Shown here: positions 57 through 18,638 of the stretch, piece after piece
How positions within the stretch are numbered: position 1 is the first letter of the stretch
Layout: every line of letters begins with the position of its first letter
From: a virus
IMG/VR virus record: IMGVR_UViG_3300010300_000162
Span: 1-20,397 of that record
Direction: 5' to 3' (one strand)
DNA: 20,397 nucleotides
Translations under genes and position numbers: made by a program
The notes under the pieces: generated by a model
The model's input: the letters and a program-made list of their open reading frames with translations, nothing else
Databases searched by the model: none
What the model was told of the DNA's origin: nothing

Positions 57-986
57 TCAGAAGTCGAGGTTGAGATCTTCTTCGCCGCTTTCTTGCTGAG
101 CAAGGAGAAGAGTGGAGCGGATACGAATGCGACCGTTATCCATTTCTTCTTTAGAGCGCAGAGTCAAGGTTGCAGGCTTTTCCTGATTGATCTCAGGCTT
201 GGTTGCCAAGAGAGGACGGATAGAGCTATGAGCCCATGCGCCGGCAATTTTACCCTCTTCAGGGCAGTTATTGATCAAGATGCGGTAGGTGATGCCATAG
301 GAAGTTTTGCAAGGATAGTACCCGATAACTTCGTAAGGAGCATTAACTTCAAGGTCGCGGAAGTCAATTTCATCAGTGGCCTCAATACGAGGACCAGCAT
401 TACCGCTACCCTTTGCGGTGACTTTTTGCAGCAAGCCAACAATGTCGGCAGGCTTCTTCTTAACAAGGGCGTTCATTGCCTTGGGTTCGGTGGGGTTTTC
501 CCAATCAGTAAACCGAACAGCAACGGGGAGGACAGTTTGGCCATCTTCAACATCTACGGCCATAAAGAGTGCAGCGTCTTCGCCACGGCCAGAGAAGTTA
601 TAGGAGCCAAATTCAGCTTCGATCTCTTTGCCATCGGCAGTAGTGAAGCCATTCTTATCCAGGTTAACGGGGATATAGCGAGGACCCCATTGAACATAAA
701 GCTTACCATCTTCAGTCCCATCGACGCCATCAGTGCCGACTTTGAGCACAGGGCCAAAGAGACGGAAGTAAATGCTATCACGAGACTTGATCAGGAAAGT
801 GTTCTCATCAAGAGGCAGTTCCTCACTGGTGAGGTACTGGAACACAGTTCCGAGATCTTTACGCATCACCTTGGGGAGGTTTGCGTTTGGAAGGGAGGTG
901 TACTCACTGTTGTACTCACGTCCTGCCAGAGGGGCGAGGGAGGGAGCATTGGTCGAAACGTCAATCGTGTTGATGTTAAAAGACAT
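57..986 (-). CDS. Probable ssDNA-binding-like protein (309 aa), acidic C-terminal tip
   Basis: I do not recognise this 309-aa protein with certainty. The last residues, EEDLNLDF, form an acidic tip ending in Phe, like the protein-interaction tail of bacterial and phage SSB proteins (typical ending DDDIPF). The length is close to T4 gp32 (301 aa), but I see no gp32-type zinc motif. The body is rich in alternating beta-type segments, compatible with OB folds (about residues 65-165 and 205-300). The start at 986 is supported by a strong Shine-Dalgarno AAAGGAA (995-1001) nine bases upstream. The gene has its own perfect sigma-70 promoter (1049-1077), fitting early, strong, host-polymerase-driven expression. 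Codon use is biased: TTA, CTA and TCA are absent, which leaves a spurious codon-aligned antisense ORF across almost the whole gene. Alternative: another abundant early or structural protein. Coding status is very sure; function is an inference. Confidence 0.45.
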   Translation of the reverse strand: MSFNINTIDVSTNAPSLAPLAGREYNSEYTSLPNANLPKVMRKDLGTVFQYLTSEELPLDENTFLIKSRDSIYFRLFGPVLKVGTDGVDGTEDGKLYVQWGPRYIPVNLDKNGFTTADGKEIEAEFGSYNFSGRGEDAALFMAVDVEDGQTVLPVAVRFTDWENPTEPKAMNALVKKKPADIVGLLQKVTAKGSGNAGPRIEATDEIDFRDLEVNAPYEVIGYYPCKTSYGITYRILINNCPEEGKIAGAWAHSSIRPLLATKPEINQEKPATLTLRSKEEMDNGRIRIRSTLLLAQQESGEEDLNLDF

Positions 987-1048: not shown

Positions 1049-1077
1049 ATTATACCATAGTAGTCAACGACTGTCAA
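1049..1077 (-). promoter_or_regulatory. Perfect consensus sigma-70 promoter, leftward
   Basis: Read on the minus strand, TTGACA (1077-1072), a 17-bp spacer and TATAAT (1054-1049) match the sigma-70 consensus at every position. The -10 is preceded by TGG, giving an extended -10. Transcription would begin near 1042, leaving a leader of about 55 nt with a good Shine-Dalgarno. The -35 box overlaps the stop codon of the upstream 87-aa gene, so the promoter separates the 309-aa gene from the fibre genes. Host polymerase with its principal sigma should recognise it. Confidence 0.88.
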
Positions 1078-1337
1078 CCACCATCTTTTTCTTTAAACTT
1101 TTTTTCTAGATCATAGAGGTATGTTTTTGCCTCTAGCTTGATCGAGTAAAGTTGCTCAGAGAGCGGATTAAATGGGCAAAGAGGAGGGATGTATAAGAGG
1201 AGGGTATTTTTGTACCAAAGCTGACGCTCAAACGGGCATTTGTCTGGCACCAACTCAATCCATTTATTGGCAAGCTCGGGCGTCCATTCCTGAGGTCTTA
1301 AATAAGAAACCGAAAATTTTGGAAAATAAGAAACCAT
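1074..1337 (-). CDS. Small Mo_nitro_C-like protein (87 aa), cyanobacterial-type
   Basis: This 87-aa protein carries CPFERQL followed by LLYIPPLCPFNPLSEQL and a helix SIKLEAKTYLYDL. The order CPFER, then IPPLC, then NPL.EQL, then a helix ending in YL is the signature I know from the 'Mo-dependent nitrogenase C-terminus' family (PF06967 type), common in cyanobacteria. Despite the family name its biochemical role is unknown, and no nitrogenase function is implied. I prefer the ATG at 1337, next to the G-rich GGTGGGTGAGG, because the 20 extra residues of the longer reading from 1397 (starting MLKTSSTTGRKARAPR) look non-coding and contain one arm of a hairpin. The gene follows the 450-aa tail gene on the same strand, and its stop overlaps the next promoter. 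Family assignment is from remembered motifs, moderately sure. Confidence 0.6.
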   Translation of the reverse strand: MVSYFPKFSVSYLRPQEWTPELANKWIELVPDKCPFERQLWYKNTLLLYIPPLCPFNPLSEQLYSIKLEAKTYLYDLEKKFKEKDGG

Positions 1338-1345
1338 CCTCACCC

Positions 1346-1379
1346 ACCACCGGGGTGCTCGTGCTTTTCTTCCGGTGGT
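1346..1379 (-). repeat. 8-bp perfect inverted repeat before the 87-aa gene
   Basis: ACCACCGG (1346-1353) and CCGGTGGT (1372-1379) form a perfect GC-rich 8-bp stem with an 18-nt loop. It sits just upstream of the preferred start at 1337. In the leftward transcript it is not followed by a T-run, so it is not a classic intrinsic terminator. It could stabilise the 3' end of the fibre mRNA or control translation of the 87-aa gene. Confidence 0.5.
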
Positions 1380-1408
1380 TGATGATGTTTTTAACATAGT
1401 TAGTTAAG

Positions 1409-2761
1409 TTACAAACCTAGTTCGCTTGGAGTTTTTGCCCCTACATAACCAAAAAGATCTGTGAAGCATAGAGGATTTGGCACAGGATTCAGAGACGTTC
1501 TAGTTGTGGGATTTCTAAATCTTTCCGGCTCGGAGTGAGAGAGATAAGCCTCAAAGTTATTACCCACCTCTGATGGAGCTGTCGAATCTTGTACCCAAAT
1601 GTACTCTTTAAGGTCGTCTTTTAAGCAAATTTTTCCAGAAGAAGGAAGCGCATCTCTTGTAGCAATGATCTCAAGGGTAATGTATTGATCCTCACCCTCT
1701 CCGCCTCCGTCTTCATAGCTCCATTGTACACTATCTCCGCCATTTTTTCTAACGTGAGTCTTTGTTGGGCAAGGAGGCCATGGAGAATAAGTTTGTGTAC
1801 CAGAAGGAGTACAGACAAAAACAGTAGAGCACGTTTCTTTACCATCACTATCAGTAGAACATGATGTACTTGAAGTTAAGGTGTACACTTGCCTTGTAGG
1901 CGCAGGGCCGGGCACAGAAAAATGACTGATTACATAGTCATGATCTCCGCCGTCAAGATTTAAAAGGTAAACTGTAGATGTGCCACTTATGTTAGGATTT
2001 GAGTATGAGCTGCGGCTATAAACACTACCTCCTACAGGCGTGCCATCGGCAATAATATCAGAGGCCTGAGGGATATTAAAACTAAATCCATTTTGCCAAG
2101 CTGCATTCTTGGTGTTTGTCATCTTTAATGAGACTAGTTTACCGGCATAATTTTTTAAATTAAAAATCATGCTGGATCCACTATTAGAGAGTCTAATTCC
2201 TCCACCTTCATCTGTTGATGTGGGAGTTGAAGGACAAGCCGGAATAGATTCGCTCCAAGGCCCAGGAGGGCATTCGCTCGGTCCAGAAGGAGGGCCAATT
2301 ACGCTTTCTGCTGTAATAACAAACGCCAGGCCCATCGGATTATCCGAGAACTTAGTTAAGGTTACACCTGTGCTAACGTTACCAATTGTAATACCAACAT
2401 CATAGTCTCCAGGTGAGGGGATCGTAATATTTGTGCCCGAGGGGTTATTAGTCTGTAGAGGCTCAACAGTAACTGATTGGCCTGCCACAGTCATACTTGA
2501 ATTTGAAGCGTTGTCGGCAACGCAGTATACTTTATAAGTTCCTGCCTGTGGAAAGTTTACTTTTTTAATAGCACTATCCTGGGCTATCTGAAGAGCGTCA
2601 GATTGCGCTTGTGTTAAATCGGGATCACCAGGATTTTGTGGATAGAACGTAAAAGTAATTCCGTGATTTGATAAAAAAGTACCCCAGTGGGGATATAGGC
2701 CAACCTCATATGCCCCTGGATACCCAATTGTTCTAGAGTTTACTAATACTGCCGTAGACAT
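1409..2761 (-). CDS. Probable tail fibre/adhesin protein (450 aa) with Cys/Pro segments
   Basis: No family is recognised with certainty. Residues 20-150 look like two beta-sandwich units: each has a segment of the type 'hydrophobic-P-x-x-G-x-Y-x-V' (FPQAGTYKV near 70-78, IPSPGDYDV near 114-122) followed by further strands. Two Pro/Cys stretches with a central Trp follow: ECPPGPWSESIPACPS (about 163-178) and CTPSGTQTYSPWPPCP (about 317-332). The C-terminal part is polar and beta-rich, with ITLEIIATRD near 361-370. There is no signal peptide or membrane segment. It lies 9 nt after the stop of the 1675-aa fibre on the same strand, so it is probably cotranscribed and works with it, for example as a distal or receptor-binding component. 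The Shine-Dalgarno is weak (AAGAAG). Coding certain, role inferred from composition and position. Confidence 0.6.
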   Translation of the reverse strand: MSTAVLVNSRTIGYPGAYEVGLYPHWGTFLSNHGITFTFYPQNPGDPDLTQAQSDALQIAQDSAIKKVNFPQAGTYKVYCVADNASNSSMTVAGQSVTVEPLQTNNPSGTNITIPSPGDYDVGITIGNVSTGVTLTKFSDNPMGLAFVITAESVIGPPSGPSECPPGPWSESIPACPSTPTSTDEGGGIRLSNSGSSMIFNLKNYAGKLVSLKMTNTKNAAWQNGFSFNIPQASDIIADGTPVGGSVYSRSSYSNPNISGTSTVYLLNLDGGDHDYVISHFSVPGPAPTRQVYTLTSSTSCSTDSDGKETCSTVFVCTPSGTQTYSPWPPCPTKTHVRKNGGDSVQWSYEDGGGEGEDQYITLEIIATRDALPSSGKICLKDDLKEYIWVQDSTAPSEVGNNFEAYLSHSEPERFRNPTTRTSLNPVPNPLCFTDLFGYVGAKTPSELGL

Positions 2762-2770
2762 AGCTTCTTA

Positions 2771-5700
2771 TCAACCGTTGTTTTCTAGTTTCTTAACTCT
2801 ATCAGAAAGCTCTTTGATTGCTTCGATAAGAACAGGCACAAGGGACTGATAGGAAATACCGTAGTATTTACTACTATCATCAAGCTTAACTACCTCTGGA
2901 AGGACCTTATTAACCTCCTGAGCAATCAAACCAAGGTGAACTGTGCCTGGATCAGATTTCAGCTCGTAGGAAACACCGCGAAGCTTTTCAACTTTAGATA
3001 GTGAATCATCGATTCTAATTACGTTATCCTTGAGACGGAGGTCAGAAGCAATACAAATGTCGTCAGTTGCGGTTACTTTATTAAAAGTTACATCAGAAGT
3101 TGTTGAGACATCTTGGCCAATAGAGACTGAGTAAGTATTATAGTCATCATCTGTTCCTATATCGCCGTCTGGACCAACGTTAGGTACAACTTGTACCGAT
3201 ACACCAACTCCTGGTGAAATAAATCCTGAAAGTCTTGTCTCTAGCTCTTGTGCAAGCTGTAAAGCGCTGACTGCAAGTAGATCAGATGTTCCTACATTAG
3301 AAGCTCCAGATTTCTTATTTCTGGCTCCTTCGATGTCTCCCTTAGAAGCAAACTGAACGACTCCTGCGTAGGAGCTTGTTCCGTAGATTCCAGGTGGGGT
3401 CTTGGAAGCAGTAATGTCTCCTGTAGAAAGACTCTTAAATTTAGTATCCTGGCTAAAGAATATATTTGTTCCGCGGCCAAGAACAAGTGAGGCATCATCT
3501 GATAAAAGCAGGTTGTTCTTAATAACAACGTTATTTAAAACCTGATTAGATACGTTACCAACTTCATTCTCTGCCTTGAGTGGAATAGAGAATTGCTCAC
3601 CGGAACGTAGGTCGAAGACTGTGGTACCAAGGTAATAGTTACCTTCTTCGTTCATACCTGTGGCATAGACTCTACCGCCCGTTTCTTCTACAATAATCTT
3701 ACCAAGAGCGAAGTCCTGCTCTAAAGGTTCGCCTTGATACGTTGGGAAAGCGGTATCATAGTTAAGATATCCGGTCCACTCCCAGGTATGACCAGAGGCT
3801 CTAATTACAGATGGTCTGCGGAGACTTGTTAAGAATCCGTTTGTAGATCCGGTTCCCTTTGTGCTAATCTTGATTCTATTAATTCCAGGACCAATCTCAT
3901 CAACTGAGTAAAATACACCGGGCCTTGTACCAAGAGCCTTAATAGCAACCTTGGTGATAGACTCTTCTGGGTCTTCTGTGAGTTCTGGCTCATCAGCATC
4001 TTGATTGGGGAATACCTCTCCAGTAAAAACGTCTCTAGCAGAAGAAGATTGAGTCATGTAGACAAGATACTTGCCATCATTCTCTGGCTTAATATCTACA
4101 GAACCCGGTCTGATATAACTGTCATAAGTTTGCACCTGAGTTACAACAAGAGGATTATCAGAAAGCTTACCACCATTAAGTGGGAAACCAACTACACCTT
4201 GTTGTTTTTCAATAATGTAATAACTCTGTGGTCTTCTTAGACCAGACTCTCTGATGTGTCCTTCTAAGATAACCTTATAAATTCTTTCTTGATCTGTTCT
4301 TTGGTCGATGCCACGAATAATCTTAATTGGGCTTCTATCAAACATGAAGTCCAACTTTTTAAAGACTAGAGTAGTGGCATCACTTGAAGTAGAGACCTTG
4401 TATCTAAACGCAAAGTCTAGTTTCTTCGTGAGATATCCATCACCATTTGTATCTCCTTTATCATCGGCCGCTTCATTAAATGTCTCTTCTGCAATATCGA
4501 TGGTATCAAGTTCAATGTACCATTTTTCAAGTTCGCTATCCCAGGCAAAAATCTTGGAGCGGTCATCTAGATTATCGAATCCAGGTGCTTCTTTTTCTTG
4601 AATCTTAATATTACCTGTATAGATAACTGAGTTACCCTCTTCATCAAATCCGGTAACATAGATTCTCTTTCTATTAGCTACTTCGCCGCCAGCATGGACG
4701 TAGGTGCTGTCATTGGATTTCTTCGTATAAGAATACTGACCAAATGCTACGTCACTAGCACTAGGTGGATTGTTAAGTTCAAAAGGATTAGCAATATCAG
4801 AGTTCTGAATATATAATTTGAACGTAGATGGTAAGGTAGATCCAGTGCTATTGTCAACAATATACTTTAAAGTATTAGTGTAGTCAAGAGCTAATCCAGT
4901 ATTGATAGAAGTATCAATAAGAGTAGGTCCTCTACCAGTTGGAAGATTATTGCTGTCGTATGACAGAGGAAGTGGAGGAATGATTTCTGTAATACGGGTT
5001 CCGGTATATGTACCTTGTGGAATACCTTCATCCTGAGAGAATGCTCTTTCTTTATATCCAAGGGCTCTCAGCGAAATGTCACCGAAGTCAGAACAAGAGT
5101 TGGTAATTGAAAGGTCAGAGCCTGACTCAGAGATAAAGTGATCAGCGTTACCAATTACGAAGCAAGACACTAACTGAATAGTAGCATCAAAGCTTCCTCT
5201 GAAACCAAAGTGGCGATACTTGAATGGATCTGTGGTGCAATTTCTGTACTTCTTACCAGCACCAGATTCTTTATTTACCGGGGGATCAGAGTAGTAGTCT
5301 ATAGAAGGAGTCTCAAAGCAGTTAGGATCGGTTTGTAGCGAGACTTGGGTGTAGTTTGCGGTAACCATAGACTTAAAGCCGCTGACTCTAGATCCATCAA
5401 CCCACATACCATTAAGACCGAAGATAGATCTTACGGAGCAATTGAATACGTAGGGTGAAGAAGATCTTGTAGAGTTAACGTCAGGTAGCTTGAAGTATGA
5501 AGTAGAACCAGCTTCGTTAACCTTAAGAAGAGCAGGACCTGGAAACTCGGGGGCGCTGGTTGGATCAAAGTCAGGTGACTGAATGCCGGTCTGGTTTTGC
5601 TCAAGGTCCTGAGAACGATCGTTCTTAGAAGCAGCAAGAGGAGCAACAATTGTGGTTTCTCCAGTTACAGGAGATAGGCCATCAGTTCCCCATCCATCAA

Positions 5701-7798
5701 TACCTGCAAACAGAGAAGCAACTTTTTGATAGTATGAGGTTTCAGTATCAGAGCCTTTAATTTCTGCCTCTGAAGCAAAACCAATAGCAGTTACTGTATT
5801 ATGACTTCTAGAGAATTGTTGGTTATCTGTAAAAGTGAGCAATGAAACATACGTTCCGCCTGTTACCTTAAAGATATAAGTCTTTTTATCTTGAGCAATG
5901 TTTTGCCCAGGAGTTAAAGCAGGAACATACATTGGGCGAATGCGGACTTTACGCAAGTCAACACCATTAATAGAAATACCTCTAGGTACGATCACACCAC
6001 CATCAGATGGGTTGAAGTCAGAGAGTCTATTGTAGTAGAGAGATTCACCAACGCTAAAGCTACCGCGTACGTTTTGTAAATATATTCTCCAAAGTGGCGA
6101 GTTGAGAGTCTCTTTCTCGATCTTATAGATCGTTCCTACACCACCAGTCTTGGTGTACAAAGTACGACCCAAACTCATGCTGACAGGCGGCTGGCTTTGA
6201 GAAGAGTTGTTAGTATCAATGACAACGAACGGAGATGCTTTTGTCCATTCTTTTTCTGTCTTAAAGCCAGTATCAACCTGCTTGATTTGCTGTTCGCCAA
6301 GAGCCTGGCCAGTAACAGCATTTACGCCGGGTGAGTTATCAACATAGTAATCGCCAGGAGCAAGTTCAATGACAGTAGTGTCATAAGCATCTAGGCCAAA
6401 AACTCTTCTACTCGCCCTTGCTGCTTCAAGAAGGGCTCGTTCAATTGTTCTAAAGGGAACATCAGGATCTGTTCCGTTATTATCAATATTATCTACACCA
6501 ACAGTAGGATCAACGTAAATAATACTACGTTGAAGCTCGGAGTTTGCTTGCACTCCGCTTCTCTGGCATCTTCCGGCATTAAATACTTTGATCAGGCCGC
6601 CTTCGCCATTAGAGTAGATCGCGTTTGTTTCGGTGATTTCCTTATAGCACTTCTGAGTAGAAGCTTCGTAGCGATAGACTCCTTCGGATGGGTTAGGATA
6701 GTCAGCAGGAACTGGTTGGCCGTCTGGGCATTCACCTGCAGTTCTTGTGCCGATATACTCTTTACCACCACAGCTGATAAATGTACCTAGCTTAGGATTA
6801 CAATCAGATCCAGGTGTTTCCTCAAACTTCCACTCTGCAGTTGCGGCGTGATAGAACAACTCAATATGAGCGTCGCGGATGTTAATAATCCAATCATCTG
6901 CAGAGTTGTTGATCTTGGTATCAGCAGCCGGGCGAAGTACTACGGGGTAGCGGTCAAAGGATCCTTCAATGTCAACAATGGCTATTCTGTCATTGTCAGA
7001 AGGAGACTGAGGAAGGGTAAGAATAACCGATCCATTTCTTGTATCAATAACGCCTCTATCCCATGACTCGAGCTGGGACGAAACGTTAAGAATTTCGGTG
7101 TTCTTCAATACACCGGTGGAGTAGTTATTAAGAGCTCCAACGAACAGGTTAGGACGGAGATCAATAACTCCGGTTCCCATCACATTATTCTCAGAGTCTA
7201 CATCAAATTGTCCATTGGTGAAATTGAGTTCAGCCAGAGGAACGTATGGATTAGAAGCAGGAGAAGGAAGTTGTGAAGAAATTGCGATCTTCGGCTCTGT
7301 AAAGTCAGCGCCCTTCTCTGCGACGTATACGTAGTTCTTACCGGTTGAGCTGATCAAGCCAATGATCTGACGAGGCCATGCAAAAACGTTACCATCAGAA
7401 AGGACAATCTTTCCGGCTTCTACAATAACACCAAAGCTTTCAGGAACCCCAGTGGTATCGATTGTGATTGTTTGGTCATCGCCGATATTAATCGGCACAG
7501 TTTTAGGTTCTAGGAACTTAGCCTCAATTGCCGAGGTGATAGTGCCTTCGTATCCTAGAATGACACCATCATGAGCCAACCTACCAATCGCGGTTTCTTG
7601 CTCCTCGCGTGGATTGGCAATCTCGTAGTCTTTTAGTTTGTCTCTTTGGCTAACTCCCCAAGAGTTATGATCTGAGTCTCCAACAGAGTAAAAGTCTGCT
7701 CTCGGCTCTGCAGCCGAAAAGTCAGTACCTTTTTGTACCTCGTTGAGATACTCCTTGGTAACAATTGTTCCGTTAACGAACGTAATCTTGTCAAGCAT
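2771..7798 (-). CDS. Giant tail fibre/structural protein (1675 aa) with C-terminal S74 intramolecular chaperone
   Basis: A virion fibre likely involved in host contact. The C-terminal ~92 residues are a Peptidase_S74 chaperone: SDLRLKDN at 1585-1592 supplies Ser1585 and Lys1590 (the spacing of the known Ser-Lys dyad), followed by HLGLIAQEV and a coiled-coil end KELSDRVKKLENNG. In this family the domain trimerises the fibre and then cuts itself off just before the Ser, leaving about 1584 residues. DVSTTSDVTFNKV just ahead of it is a common phage-fibre motif. Around 425-465, YVDPTVGVDN...GTDPDVPFRTIERAL resembles the entry of a right-handed beta-helix (DUF1565-like). FGLNGMWVDG and SGFKSMVTANYT near 780-805 resemble a large structural protein of marine cyanomyoviruses as I remember it. 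A Cys-rich segment lies at about 330-420. The gene starts 11 nt after the 182-aa gene; no Shine-Dalgarno is visible. Confidence 0.88.
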   Translation of the reverse strand: MLDKITFVNGTIVTKEYLNEVQKGTDFSAAEPRADFYSVGDSDHNSWGVSQRDKLKDYEIANPREEQETAIGRLAHDGVILGYEGTITSAIEAKFLEPKTVPINIGDDQTITIDTTGVPESFGVIVEAGKIVLSDGNVFAWPRQIIGLISSTGKNYVYVAEKGADFTEPKIAISSQLPSPASNPYVPLAELNFTNGQFDVDSENNVMGTGVIDLRPNLFVGALNNYSTGVLKNTEILNVSSQLESWDRGVIDTRNGSVILTLPQSPSDNDRIAIVDIEGSFDRYPVVLRPAADTKINNSADDWIINIRDAHIELFYHAATAEWKFEETPGSDCNPKLGTFISCGGKEYIGTRTAGECPDGQPVPADYPNPSEGVYRYEASTQKCYKEITETNAIYSNGEGGLIKVFNAGRCQRSGVQANSELQRSIIYVDPTVGVDNIDNNGTDPDVPFRTIERALLEAARASRRVFGLDAYDTTVIELAPGDYYVDNSPGVNAVTGQALGEQQIKQVDTGFKTEKEWTKASPFVVIDTNNSSQSQPPVSMSLGRTLYTKTGGVGTIYKIEKETLNSPLWRIYLQNVRGSFSVGESLYYNRLSDFNPSDGGVIVPRGISINGVDLRKVRIRPMYVPALTPGQNIAQDKKTYIFKVTGGTYVSLLTFTDNQQFSRSHNTVTAIGFASEAEIKGSDTETSYYQKVASLFAGIDGWGTDGLSPVTGETTIVAPLAASKNDRSQDLEQNQTGIQSPDFDPTSAPEFPGPALLKVNEAGSTSYFKLPDVNSTRSSSPYVFNCSVRSIFGLNGMWVDGSRVSGFKSMVTANYTQVSLQTDPNCFETPSIDYYSDPPVNKESGAGKKYRNCTTDPFKYRHFGFRGSFDATIQLVSCFVIGNADHFISESGSDLSITNSCSDFGDISLRALGYKERAFSQDEGIPQGTYTGTRITEIIPPLPLSYDSNNLPTGRGPTLIDTSINTGLALDYTNTLKYIVDNSTGSTLPSTFKLYIQNSDIANPFELNNPPSASDVAFGQYSYTKKSNDSTYVHAGGEVANRKRIYVTGFDEEGNSVIYTGNIKIQEKEAPGFDNLDDRSKIFAWDSELEKWYIELDTIDIAEETFNEAADDKGDTNGDGYLTKKLDFAFRYKVSTSSDATTLVFKKLDFMFDRSPIKIIRGIDQRTDQERIYKVILEGHIRESGLRRPQSYYIIEKQQGVVGFPLNGGKLSDNPLVVTQVQTYDSYIRPGSVDIKPENDGKYLVYMTQSSSARDVFTGEVFPNQDADEPELTEDPEESITKVAIKALGTRPGVFYSVDEIGPGINRIKISTKGTGSTNGFLTSLRRPSVIRASGHTWEWTGYLNYDTAFPTYQGEPLEQDFALGKIIVEETGGRVYATGMNEEGNYYLGTTVFDLRSGEQFSIPLKAENEVGNVSNQVLNNVVIKNNLLLSDDASLVLGRGTNIFFSQDTKFKSLSTGDITASKTPPGIYGTSSYAGVVQFASKGDIEGARNKKSGASNVGTSDLLAVSALQLAQELETRLSGFISPGVGVSVQVVPNVGPDGDIGTDDDYNTYSVSIGQDVSTTSDVTFNKVTATDDICIASDLRLKDNVIRIDDSLSKVEKLRGVSYELKSDPGTVHLGLIAQEVNKVLPEVVKLDDSSKYYGISYQSLVPVLIEAIKELSDRVKKLENNG

Positions 7799-7809: not shown

Positions 7810-8358
7810 TTATGAAATATTATTGATCCAGAGTAATCTGCCCATCCAGGAATCATTAGGGCCAAAGGAGCTAAGCTCCACCATTATTTGTCTACCTTGA
7901 GCTTTGTAAGCATCGATAGGATTATCAGCATCCTCATTAGTTGCAATAAGGCCATGTCCCCAAGTAATACCCACTGATTGTATATACCATGAGTCCTTAG
8001 CTCCCCAATTTACTGGGTAGTCAAAGTAGACTACGTTTGCCACGGGCTCTTGCGGGAAGGTGATTAAGATTCTCGATTCTCTGTAAAATCCTTGCGGAAT
8101 GAGTAAGGGGTTTGTATTTGAAATAGGTAAGTTGTCTGGATTGCTTACGTCTGCCAATAAATAATTGGAAGTTCTTAGCGGCCCCATTGGGTTGTTTTTA
8201 ACGGCCCCGCCTACTTCAATCGGGGATCCGATGGCGTCCCCCATCCAAACTCTGCCATCGGCGTTATTGCCAAACAGCTCCCCCTCATCCAAGTCCCCGA
8301 TGAAAGGCTCCTCTCCGGCAATATTTGAAGTTAGAATTTGAATAGATGCTTGACTCAT
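7810..8358 (-). CDS. Tail fibre-associated/virion protein (182 aa)
   Basis: The N-terminal part contains DLDEGELFGNNADGRVWMGD (about 23-42) and then PIEVGG. This 'GEL-x-N-x-ADG-R/K-hydrophobic-x-G-D' pattern is typical of the N-terminal, virion-anchoring region of many phage tail fibre and tropism proteins. The remaining ~110 residues are unrecognised and aromatic-rich (YFDYPVNWGAKDSWYIQSVG). It is the first gene of the leftward fibre operon, directly after the divergent control region, and stops 11 nt before the giant fibre gene, so it may connect that fibre to the baseplate. Function is inferred from one motif and position. Confidence 0.55.
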   Translation of the reverse strand: MSQASIQILTSNIAGEEPFIGDLDEGELFGNNADGRVWMGDAIGSPIEVGGAVKNNPMGPLRTSNYLLADVSNPDNLPISNTNPLLIPQGFYRESRILITFPQEPVANVVYFDYPVNWGAKDSWYIQSVGITWGHGLIATNEDADNPIDAYKAQGRQIMVELSSFGPNDSWMGRLLWINNIS

Positions 8359-13010: not shown

Positions 13011-15898
13011 TGACAAGAAAATCCTCATTTATTAAAGCTCTAACATCTACTGAAAGCGATGCCGGAAGACTGTTTAAAAAAATTGGCGGGTTGGAGATTG
13101 ATTTCTTTATTCAACCTGCCACTATTTTTGATGTCAACGACCCAGAAAATCTTTCTAGGGTCAGAGTTTTATTTGACGAGAATTCTACAGACGCAAAGTC
13201 TGAATGGCTCCCAGTACTTAATAGCGGTAAAGGTAAAGTCTCGACTCAGTACGTAGGTGCAAAATGCCTTGTAGGAGCGATTAGTGGCAATAGCGATAAT
13301 GCTATTGTCCTAGGATTATTTAACGATACCACCAATAACCAAGTAATTTCTTCAGGGCCGGTTACTATTCCGATTATTGATGCAAGTGACATTGCAAATA
13401 CTTCCGACCCTGGAGTAAAATGCACAAAAGAAAACGAAGGCAGAACGTATATTTTTTCTAGCAATGTATCTCATGACCTAAAGGTATGTGTTAGAAGAAA
13501 CAATAGGCAAAAAGGTCCTGATAAAGACGTTTGGGATTGGAAAAATTTAACCAGGGGTTTGGTTATTGAAAAAGAAACCGACCCAAAACAAGCCCAAGGT
13601 AACTCAACGGTTCATGCAAAAAATCCACTACCAAAATGCAAAGCAGAACTAGAAGGAGAGTCGATTCAGTTTTCTGAAGATAGAGATTTTAGGCAGATTC
13701 CATTGATCTGCAAAAAAGATGAGAATAATGATTGGGCATGGGTGCCACCAAGCGCAGCTCCTACGTATTTTAGATATAATTATCCAAAATGTACAGAAAA
13801 AATACACGGGCAAATTGCGGTAATAGATGACGGAAACAATTCCGAACTTAGCGTATGTGTGAGATACGACAAGAGTATGAAATGGGTGAAGTATGGAACA
13901 AGACTCCCTATCAAGTTTTCTGATAAAACCGCTCCACCAGAAAAGTCTGATATACTGAACAAAGTAAAACCTAATCCTAACCTTGCAATAGGTGGACCTT
14001 CAATGTTGGCCACTCCGGCAATTCAAAGTCCGGTTATAGGTAATGAAAACTTAGCGCAGTCTATTTTCCAACAAGCATCTGCGGGCGTAGTACCTGGGTT
14101 TACTAATGAAGCTATTTCAAAAGCCGTAGATGCAGTTTCTGGATTAACGTCACTTGATTCTGGGCAAATGATAGCTCAGCAACTAGGAGCTAGGTTGCTA
14201 GATGAACAAGGACTTAGTATCGACCAGCTTGATTCAATTTTACGTAGCGGGGATTTAGGCACTGCTCAAAACTTTTTAAACGCCTTAGGCCCAGAAATTG
14301 CACAAATTGCATCCAGTGGTGACCTAGGAAGAATTTTATTAACCGCTGGATCAGGAGCTCTTGTAAATGCGCTAGGTTCTATCTCTTCAAAAAATGCTGG
14401 TGTATTTAACTCATTGATAGTTGGTGGCCTCCAAGGTGCTTTAGATGCCGCAGTTCAGTATGGAATGGACTTTGTCCCATCACCGGCAAATGAAGTGTTT
14501 TCTAGCGTAATTGGAGGGCTTGATTTGGGTAATGCTCCAAATGCAATTGCCTCTATTCTCAATGGAGGTAGTGTTGGAGGACTAAGTGATGCGGTAAATA
14601 GCTTAGCTAATGGTATTAACTTTGGCGATGTCGATATTGGTGGATTAGCAAATCAACTAACTTCTGGTTCTTTTGGCGATGTAGGAAAAATTTTTCAAGA
14701 CTTTGGCAATTTGCAGAACCTTTCATCTTTTGTTCCAGGCCTTCCGTCATCGGCATCGGCGCTAATGGGAGCCGTTGGTCTTGGTGGACCTTTAACTATG
14801 GCTCTCCCTGGAGGTATTGGATTAGCAGCCGCTACTTCGCTCCTTGGAGGCGGTAATCCGCTCTCTTCTATATTAGGAGGAGGCGGCGCTTTCGGTGCTC
14901 TTGGTGGTTTATTTGGTGGCGGAGGAGCATCTAACCCCTGCCCATGTGAGCCTAAATGCCGAAAAGTATCTCACGGTGTAGATAGCGATGGCAACAAACT
15001 CCTAGACGCAGCTGGTAACTTAACCTTAGATAATACAAATGTTTACGGAGCTGATCCGCTTAACAACAATAAAGGTTGCTTAGCCAGCGAAGTTGGCGTA
15101 AGTTTTACTGGTATTGGGGAAGACTTAATTCCTAAAAATATTTCTAACTTTACTCAGATAATTAGATCAATTCCTAGAGTTAATGAGTTAAGCAAAAAAT
15201 TAGAAGATGCAATTAAGGGCGGGGCAGAAGGCGCCGATATTGGCCTTGAAATGGTTTACTCTATGGAAGCTATAGAAAAAGCGTTTAAGGTCGCGGATAA
15301 TAATGTCAGTGCTCTGGAGCTTATTCAACGTCTAGAGTTGATCGGCGGTAGAAACTTTATGAACGCCTTAATCTCTGGTAAGAACGGTGGATTACTTAAC
15401 CTTATGGCCAAAGATATAGTTGAGAATTCTTTAGCGGTTCATGATCTATACAGAATGGTAGAAGAATTAAATAAGGTTAAAGACGGTGGAAGAGCTACTA
15501 CTACTATCACGCCGGCTCTTGTGTTAACAAAGAAAAATCCGTCTACAATCCCGGCATATTTTTCTAAATACAAATCTTATACAGTTAAGAATCTGCTTAA
15601 AAATATCTTAGAAGCTTTATCAATACTTAGTGATCTAGACCCAGAACTTGGGATTCCTTTTGATGGTCTTGAAACACGAAACAATCCTTCAAAAATACTC
15701 AATGATTCTCTATCGGCAAGGTTTAACTTGAATCAACCAGAAGAAGATACCGTTAACTCAGTCTATAGGAACTATAGCACCAGTGGAATTAACTCACTTA
15801 CTCAAAATCAATTAGACTCTGGAGAGTTTGCTACGCTACTAGATCAAATTAACAATGAACAAGAAAGAGCTAGAAATAGAGAAGGCGACTGTAGCTGA
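13010..15898 (+). CDS. gp5-like baseplate hub / spike protein (962 aa)
   Basis: A central hub or spike protein. Residues 30-105 form a gp5/VgrG-type OB fold: LSRVRVLFD (48-56), SEWLPVL (64-70), then STQYVGAKCLVGAISGNSDN and AIVLGLFND. Three Cys-Trp modules follow, with Cys pairs at 138/160, 210/234 and 261/283, each ending in Trp near 175-177, 242-244 and 292. Residues about 330-640 are Ala/Gly/Ser/Leu-rich low complexity ending in a Gly-rich run (GGGGAFGALGGLFGGGGAS). CPCEPKC (about 644-650) opens a charged C-terminal part. This CPC segment with RKVSHGVDSDGN resembles the gp5 homologues of marine cyanomyoviruses as I recall them. No lysozyme domain and no T4-type triple beta-helix repeats are apparent. 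The start overlaps the previous stop (TAATG). The C-terminus may overlap the TerL start by 44 bp. Confidence 0.75.
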   Translation: MTRKSSFIKALTSTESDAGRLFKKIGGLEIDFFIQPATIFDVNDPENLSRVRVLFDENSTDAKSEWLPVLNSGKGKVSTQYVGAKCLVGAISGNSDNAIVLGLFNDTTNNQVISSGPVTIPIIDASDIANTSDPGVKCTKENEGRTYIFSSNVSHDLKVCVRRNNRQKGPDKDVWDWKNLTRGLVIEKETDPKQAQGNSTVHAKNPLPKCKAELEGESIQFSEDRDFRQIPLICKKDENNDWAWVPPSAAPTYFRYNYPKCTEKIHGQIAVIDDGNNSELSVCVRYDKSMKWVKYGTRLPIKFSDKTAPPEKSDILNKVKPNPNLAIGGPSMLATPAIQSPVIGNENLAQSIFQQASAGVVPGFTNEAISKAVDAVSGLTSLDSGQMIAQQLGARLLDEQGLSIDQLDSILRSGDLGTAQNFLNALGPEIAQIASSGDLGRILLTAGSGALVNALGSISSKNAGVFNSLIVGGLQGALDAAVQYGMDFVPSPANEVFSSVIGGLDLGNAPNAIASILNGGSVGGLSDAVNSLANGINFGDVDIGGLANQLTSGSFGDVGKIFQDFGNLQNLSSFVPGLPSSASALMGAVGLGGPLTMALPGGIGLAAATSLLGGGNPLSSILGGGGAFGALGGLFGGGGASNPCPCEPKCRKVSHGVDSDGNKLLDAAGNLTLDNTNVYGADPLNNNKGCLASEVGVSFTGIGEDLIPKNISNFTQIIRSIPRVNELSKKLEDAIKGGAEGADIGLEMVYSMEAIEKAFKVADNNVSALELIQRLELIGGRNFMNALISGKNGGLLNLMAKDIVENSLAVHDLYRMVEELNKVKDGGRATTTITPALVLTKKNPSTIPAYFSKYKSYTVKNLLKNILEALSILSDLDPELGIPFDGLETRNNPSKILNDSLSARFNLNQPEEDTVNSVYRNYSTSGINSLTQNQLDSGEFATLLDQINNEQERARNREGDCS

Positions 15899-17539: not shown

Positions 17540-17857
17540 ATGTCAGAAAAACCTAAATTTAAATACAGAATTGTATTTTTTAAGCAACCAAGTTGCGCAG
17601 CTTGTGAAGCGATGCGTCCTATCTGGTCACAAGTTGCAAATGAAATCAGCGAAAACTATCCGCATTACAAAGTAGGCTTTGGCGAGTGGGACGTAACTTC
17701 AGATGACTGGGAGTTTTGCGATAAGATCGAGTGCGATGGCACTCCGAACTTTGCAGTATTTGATGAAGAAGGAACGCTTCTTGGGTTGAATACCGAAGGC
17801 GTTATGTCAGCTGGGCAGCTAAAAGATTTTATTTTAGGAGCAATCAAAGATGAATGA
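17540..17857 (+). CDS. Thioredoxin-like protein (105 aa)
   Basis: A single thioredoxin-fold domain of normal size (105 aa). It has the redox motif CAAC at 19-22 within FKQPSCAACEAM, the cis-proline TP (68-69) in GTPNFAVF, and the terminal GxxxxxxLxxFI helix (AGQLKDFILGAI). It should be a cytoplasmic dithiol-disulfide oxidoreductase. The active site differs from the canonical WCGPC: there is no preceding Trp (it is Ser), and the residues between the cysteines are Ala-Ala, which is nearer to glutaredoxin-like or atypical phage thioredoxins. Two extra cysteines lie at 60 and 65. It is the first gene of the cassette, follows the control region at 17454-17539, and overlaps the sigma-factor gene by 8 bp, so the two are coexpressed. 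Confidence 0.88.
   Translation: MSEKPKFKYRIVFFKQPSCAACEAMRPIWSQVANEISENYPHYKVGFGEWDVTSDDWEFCDKIECDGTPNFAVFDEEGTLLGLNTEGVMSAGQLKDFILGAIKDE
17836..17840 (+). promoter_or_regulatory. Ribosome binding site of the sigma factor gene
   Basis: AGGAG lies nine bases before the ATG at 17850, inside the end of the thioredoxin gene. It supports that start over later in-frame choices. Confidence 0.7.
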
Positions 17858-18638
17858 TGTGCCAATAGCAAAACCTAGAATAAGCTCTAAAAGAGCTAGG
17901 GATCTTCGCGATGAGCATATCATATCACAAATGTGGAAGGCTGATCAAGTTGCAAGGAAAATCTCAAACTTTACGGGGTTGCCCTTTGAAGAACTAAGAG
18001 ATGCTGCTCTTGAGTATATTGTACGTATCTATGATACCTGGGATCAGAGCAAAGGTGCAAACTTCTCCACCTGGGTGAATAGGTGCCTTCAGTTTCACAT
18101 GCTTAATTACCTCAGAGATAGCTCCAGGCTTGTAAAAATGCCTAGGTCGTATTCTGATCTCTATCTTAAGATTAGGAAGTATTTAATTAAGAATCCTAAT
18201 ATCTCTAATCAAGAGATCGCCGATGATCTTAACATCTCTGTGAAAAAAGTAGATACCGTTCGCACGGCGTTTACTATGAGTTTTAATCCAGTAACCGAGC
18301 AAAACTGCATTATAGAGTCGTCAGAAGATTCAGAGATTGGATTTGGGGAACTGTTGACAAATCACAAAGAACTCTTGTTTAGGATCACAGATTTAGAAAA
18401 AGATGACGAAACATTTCTTATAGATTATCTTGTTAAGAAACGTTCTGTATCCACTCTTCTCCGTAAAAATCCCCATCTTAAAAACATCGAAGATATTAAG
18501 TCATATTCGACTAAGCTAATCAATTACATCTTATGGGCAGACAAGTCGTTCGAGTCTTGGGACAAGACTATACAAAGACAAAGTTCGAAGAGAAGTGGAG
18601 CCAAGTCGTCAAAAACACAGAGTGTAACTACTTTGTAA
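17850..18638 (+). CDS. Phage sigma-70-family RNA polymerase sigma factor (262 aa), no clear region 4
   Basis: Redirects host RNA polymerase, probably to phage late promoters. Region 2 is clear: LPFEELRDAALEYIVRIYDT (44-63), then KGANFSTWVNRCLQFHMLNY (68-87) and LRDSSRLVKMPRS (88-100), matching the family's 'FSTYA...I...I...LRD.S..VR.PR'. A helix-turn-helix typical of region 3 follows (PNISNQEIADDLNISVKKVD, 116-135), then a region 3.2-like linker with ESSEDSEIGFGELL (156-169). The part after 180 does not show a recognisable region 4 (-35 binding); a degenerate helical version at about 180-228 is possible. T4 gp55 also lacks normal region 4, so -10-only promoters are plausible. The last ~30 residues are basic and Ser-rich and are encoded in the overlap with the next gene. 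Confidence 0.85.
   Translation: MNDVPIAKPRISSKRARDLRDEHIISQMWKADQVARKISNFTGLPFEELRDAALEYIVRIYDTWDQSKGANFSTWVNRCLQFHMLNYLRDSSRLVKMPRSYSDLYLKIRKYLIKNPNISNQEIADDLNISVKKVDTVRTAFTMSFNPVTEQNCIIESSEDSEIGFGELLTNHKELLFRITDLEKDDETFLIDYLVKKRSVSTLLRKNPHLKNIEDIKSYSTKLINYILWADKSFESWDKTIQRQSSKRSGAKSSKTQSVTTL

Follow-up and report, generated by a model that had tools for sequence, protein, structure and literature searches.

What is a small protein of a cyanobacterial family named after nitrogenase doing directly behind the tail fibre genes of a virus? The window, i.e. the whole stretch of 20,397 nucleotides that was analysed (positions 1 to 20,397 of IMG/VR record IMGVR_UViG_3300010300_000162), is, judged by its sequence, a close relative of the marine Synechococcus myovirus S-TIM5. 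Its large terminase (TerL) is 91% identical to that of the S-TIM5 group and its gp96 homologue is 88% identical to S-TIM5 gp96, which makes the host assignment independent of the small gene. The myoviruses S-TIM5, S-TIM54, S-TIM61 and S-TIM66 come from isolations on the marine Synechococcus strains WH8102 and CC9605. A search of 50,697 phage records detected the small gene in the S-TIM5 group only, with a phage and with a cyanobacterial query alike, and not in phages of unrelated hosts. The initial annotation had read this gene as evidence for a cyanobacterial host, and this is supported by its restricted occurrence, with TerL and gp96 agreeing independently. A match in Microcoleus phage My-WqHQDG was considered a chance hit (E 4, 23 residues).

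The gene encodes a protein of 107 aa (Table 1), in which the motifs CPFER, IPPLC and NPLSEQL follow each other in this order. Using hmmscan, PF06967.16 (Mo-nitro_C) is the sole Pfam family matched, with 52.6 bits (E 4.8e-14) against a curated cut-off of 27 bits, residues 40-96 being aligned to positions 17-73 of the 83-position profile. Nine related records searched together with the window also score above 27 bits. This profile search bears out the family membership claimed in the initial annotation, and the identity as a Mo-nitro_C domain protein can be regarded as practically certain. No family was found for the protein in PHROGs or NCBIfam, and a PHROG scan of all 47 aligned phage members did not yield one either (best E 0.16). 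The gene had been placed at 1074-1337. Its location is correct, but the right edge is not: position 1337 corresponds to the internal Met21, and the gene start was set at 1397 because the relatives share the N-terminal stretch GRKARAPRWW ahead of this methionine. A 75-aa opposite-strand ORF at 1172-1399 is not needed, as it explains nothing otherwise unexplained. In S-TIM5 the orthologue is gp097 (YP_007006129), with 61-63% identity to the window protein across S-TIM5, S-TIM54, S-TIM61 and S-TIM66; the window version has a longer C-terminal tail. This protein is labelled ‘hypothetical’ in GenBank and already carries the Mo-nitro_C name in UniProt (H6WFZ1), and a literature search found no paper on it.

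Table 1. Features of the small gene and its surroundings in the window
Feature	Position	Strand	Evidence
107-aa Mo-nitro_C domain CDS, homologue of S-TIM5 gp097	1074..1397	-	PF06967 match, homologues, dN/dS
Basic Trp-rich N-terminal motif, codons 6-18	1344..1382	-	Alignments, sequences
CPFE, first invariant cysteine, codons 54-57	1227..1238	-	Conserved throughout in phages and cyanobacteria
P-[PA]-L-C-x-x-N-P, second invariant cysteine, codons 71-78	1164..1187	-	Invariance; follows modelled beta-hairpin
Perfect sigma-70 type promoter TTGACA-17-TATAAT, TG before -10 box, into gp96	1049..1077	-	12/12 matches
gp96 homologue, 309 aa, conserved downstream neighbour, PHROG 25892	57..986	-	88% to S-TIM5 gp96
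450-aa cistron directly upstream, 11-nt gap, variable among relatives	1409..2761	-	ORF and locus comparison
1675-aa tail fibre, C-terminal S74 chaperone domain	2771..7798	-	PF13884 E 6.9e-15; PHROG 529; 63% to S-TIM5 gp98
182-aa first cistron of the fibre unit	7810..8358	-	73% to S-TIM5 gp99

The window protein carries CPFE and P-P-x-C-x-x-N-P with a cysteine spacing of 20 residues, one of the features by which PF06967 membership was judged. All 67 phage sequences and 164/165 of the cyanobacterial ones have this spacing, although such cysteine and CPFE counts are biased upward, the sequences having been retrieved partly by those motifs. Ten residues are invariant from phages to cyanobacteria (A43, P51, C54, P55, F56, E57, P71, C74, N77 and P78), and 56 of the 67 phage proteins contain no cysteines beyond the Cys54/Cys74 pair. 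The window match stops at position 73 of the 83-position domain and does not extend to its C-terminal YLADxCGED region; a CGED-type motif occurs in none of the 67 phage sequences versus 131 of the 165 cyanobacterial ones. In the TerB fusions of picocyanobacteria, the domain match often ends early too. At the other end of the protein, P15, W17 and W18 are near-invariant in the phage copies, the longer GRKARAPRWW stretch being typical of the S-TIM5-like clade, whereas the cyanobacterial copies have PLRxWLD at this place. The window protein has a pI of 9.5 and a charge of +7.5 over its first 35 residues.

An AlphaFold2 model (81 sequences, pLDDT 90.4) consists of two helices, a beta-hairpin (E58-62/E65-70) and a long helix (80-106). 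Based on the hairpin register of this model, Cys54 and Cys74 should face each other. Foldseek identified H6WFZ1 of S-TIM5 as the sole viral match, both for the window model (E 3.4e-13, TM 0.82) and for the model of a cyanobacterial copy, which has the same hairpin (E 5.5e-5, rmsd 1.9). Foldseek against the PDB and a PDB sequence search gave no meaningful match, and none to a known chaperone.

Next, the neighbourhood was compared, as far as the contigs reach. Two scans of IMG/VR gave 66 loci, and the gene order in the viral loci is fibre genes, homologue of the 107-aa gene, gp96, gp94 and NrdB, with an extra gene in between in a few loci. One locus was set apart: IMGVR_UViG_3300035003_000005 (L160) is filed as viral, yet it looks like a Cyanobiaceae TerB-Mo-nitro_C fusion on a cyanobacterial fragment rather than a phage copy. 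The position beside fibre genes, already described in the initial annotation, thus recurs with the same neighbours, the 60-odd conserved neighbourhoods counting as one event because the position was inherited once. In S-TIM5, the homologue closes the fibre unit and has the same neighbours, outside the region with most of the depositor-noted ‘Bacterial-like’ genes; the 450-aa cistron between fibre and gene in the window is absent in S-TIM5. When 59 IMG/VR contigs were fetched by gp96, the gene was located upstream in 58 of them, and the 59th contig ends 275 bases before gp96. This amounts to a retention of 58/58 among gp96-bearing contigs with enough upstream sequence, with the proviso that gp96 retrieval relies on conserved patterns and divergent relatives without the gene could be missed. 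As sampled, this is a core gene of the S-TIM5-like cyanomyovirus lineage (Aurunvirus and relatives), and it very probably belongs, as such a core member, to the fibre unit.

The 1675-aa tail fibre is part of the same transcription unit as the 107-aa gene, which follows the fibre genes as the final cistron. Across loci, the gene start is mostly at -4 to +17 nt relative to the stop codon of the fibre-module cistron before it. The promoter leading into gp96 begins within the 107-aa gene, its -35 box overlapping the stop codon there. Only one such 12/12 site is present in the window, versus 0.03 expected; among the relatives it is found downstream of the gene in 15 of 65 and upstream in none, and more distant relatives have weaker sites at the place of the gp96 promoter. 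A T4-type late promoter (TATAAATA) was not found. With a promoter behind it and none in front, the 107-aa gene is best assigned to the fibre unit and, by this operon logic, is probably expressed late. The same promoter suggests that a host-type polymerase transcribes gp96, together with the genes after it, as a separate unit.

The median dN/dS is 0.16 (64 pairs with usable dS), indicating purifying selection. A tree of 65 columns, made with a mixture model after a first FastTree run, groups the phage copies in a single clade (100/100 support) that is nested in no sampled cyanobacterial group; the stem from this clade to all cyanobacterial copies measures about 2.8 changes per site, the deep order being weak and the root between both sides not set. 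Nesting in a host clade, as expected for an auxiliary gene of recent host origin, was therefore not observed. A transfer from phage to cyanobacterium is formally conceivable as well, the tree being unrooted.

Outside these phages, the family is known from cyanobacteria and their plasmids only. PF06967 is present in 138 of the 386 genomes sampled across the cyanobacterial phylum, in 48/50 genomes of one cyanobacterial family and in 1 of 14 control genomes (Synechococcus elongatus), often as multiple copies, with up to 8 per genome among those sampled. In the picocyanobacterial family, 44 of 400 sampled species have a match and 356 have none, the host strains of S-TIM5 not being singled out; the matches listed are mostly open frames of at least 190 aa, with TerB-like N-termini in those that were read. 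The cyanobacterial proteins, i.e. short paralogues, all1439 and Slr1194-type TerB fusions, have around 30% identity to the phage protein, both cysteines with the spacing of 20, and a hairpin and long helix in their models as in the phage model. The phage copies differ from them by the absence of the CGED-type motif and of TerB, by their phage-type N-terminus and by forming their own clade. The commonest neighbour families among the fetched cyanobacterial loci are dapA-rnj, purQ/fur and tatC, and not nif. In many cyanobacteria (e.g. loci L027, L033 and L043), dapA and RNase J are followed by a short paralogue, with RNase J as a neighbour in 15 cyanobacterial loci, and this conserved context could guide the search for a function. 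No functional study of the Mo-nitro_C family was found in the literature. Two leads were dropped. For asr1734, a heterocyst regulator first thought to be related to PF06967, the literature found gives no link to this family. The other is the light-responsive Cys123 of Synechocystis Slr1194 (PMC13214033). Two candidate Synechocystis genomes encode a TerB-Mo-nitro_C fusion in which residues 112-129 are IDALESLEHTICDPNGDR, with a cysteine at 123. The published peptide coordinates match this fusion, but the cysteine is in the TerB/linker part, outside the shared domain, and therefore says nothing on the phage protein.

Our tentative explanation is a late role internal to the phage, in which the protein, itself non-structural, would help fibres or virions to assemble. 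The gene would be expressed late together with the fibres, and its product might assist assembly whatever the fibre tip, more in the way of T4 gp57A than of gp38. The hairpin with the cysteine pair, which the cyanobacterial domain also has, would form the fold core or a putative binding site, and the basic Trp-rich N-terminus a phage-specific contact. Around 50 CDSs of S-TIM5, including some as small as 50-81 aa, bear the name virion structural; gp097 is not among them, as expected for a non-structural helper, and this name presumably reflects mass-spectrometric detection. The T4 fibre chaperones gp57A and gp38 are likewise products of small genes, and that of gp38 also lies directly behind a fibre gene. 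This likeness would be one of function, as neither matches the window protein in sequence or fold. A helper tied to one tip is improbable. Such a chaperone or adhesin, of the T4 gp38 or Tfa kind and matched to the adjacent fibre tip, would suit a gene that is directly behind the last fibre cistron and translationally coupled, but gp38/Tfa-type chaperones travel with their fibre tips. Here, pairwise identity follows that of the core protein gp96 (Spearman rho 0.58) rather than that of the adjacent fibre C-terminus (rho 0.16), and 134 pairs have more than 60% identity in this gene beside an unrelated upstream fibre end, which together argues against tip specificity. Slightly less probable still is a lysis or envelope-active protein, whose cationic Trp/Arg-rich N-terminus would act on the membrane late in infection. 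The pI, the N-terminal charge and the place at the end of the fibre operon are compatible with this, the T4 holin gene t also lying behind the T4 fibre genes; however, no obvious transmembrane stretch is seen on reading the sequence, and the fold is predicted well and as globular.

Nearly as likely as the phage-internal late role is a host-directed one, in which the phage would have kept what the cyanobacterial domain does (binding a partner, or redox or metal chemistry involving its cysteine pair) and would use it in the infected cell to redirect host physiology. The ten residues invariant with the host family could equally mean that such an activity was kept. The confinement of the family to cyanobacteria and their plasmids, the same predicted fold as the cyanobacterial copy, to go by the H6WFZ1 match, and the many host-type genes of S-TIM5 are also in its favour. 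However, most picocyanobacterial species sampled lack a family member that could be mimicked or replaced, the gene is in the fibre unit and thus away from the psbA/hli/talC/cp12 region of S-TIM5, and the CGED-type motif of most cyanobacterial copies is missing. Moreover, auxiliary genes are typically patchy among phages, and complete retention is unusual for them. Given these points and the lack of nesting in a host clade, the proposal of an auxiliary host-derived gene modifying host physiology is unproven. A function in nitrogen fixation or heterocysts, as the family name would have it, is very unlikely. Marine Synechococcus, the hosts of S-TIM5, do not fix nitrogen, and no nif gene was found in the viral loci, where the context is fibre, gp96 and nrd. 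Many cyanobacteria carry several paralogues, and their commonest shared neighbours are not nif, although the Nostoc paralogue all1439 does lie between nifK and nifE (PMC2821919). The nitrogenase link of the phage copy is a naming artefact. The gene behaves as a fixed virus part, not as a recently borrowed host gene. A cyanobacteria-only domain might, in the distant past, have been recruited as a late gene obligatory for a whole cyanomyovirus lineage, now serving the virus in hosts that mostly lack the family.

The Mo-nitro_C name of gp097 was known before from UniProt; added here are the lineage-wide retention, the place in the fibre unit, the selection, the tracking of gp96 and the promoter. 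We consider the finding real and modestly interesting. The domain is widespread in cyanobacteria yet misnamed after nitrogenase, and the phage version, which is small, has a single domain, is probably late and is fixed in a lineage that includes cultured viruses (S-TIM5 on WH8102), offers an experimentally accessible route to whatever the domain binds. If the takeover is true, it would provide the first functional handle on Mo-nitro_C proteins. For annotation, the family name should not lead to ‘nitrogenase’ or ‘auxiliary metabolic gene’.

Some further observations concern other genes of the window. The gp96 homologue ends in the acidic EEDLNLDF, which might resemble single-strand DNA-binding proteins, and distant gp96 relatives are present in Synechococcus phage S-CBWM1 (24%) and Acaryochloris phage A-HIS1 (23%). 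A thioredoxin-fold gene (17540-17857; PF00085, E 4.7e-07) has a CAAC active site, where S-TIM5 gp107 has CVAC, and is located directly before a sigma-factor gene (17850-18638). Its product is a possible candidate for a redox partner of the cysteine pair. Finally, there is an overlap of 44 nt (15855-15898) between the terminase ORF and the end of a 962-aa baseplate-like gene.
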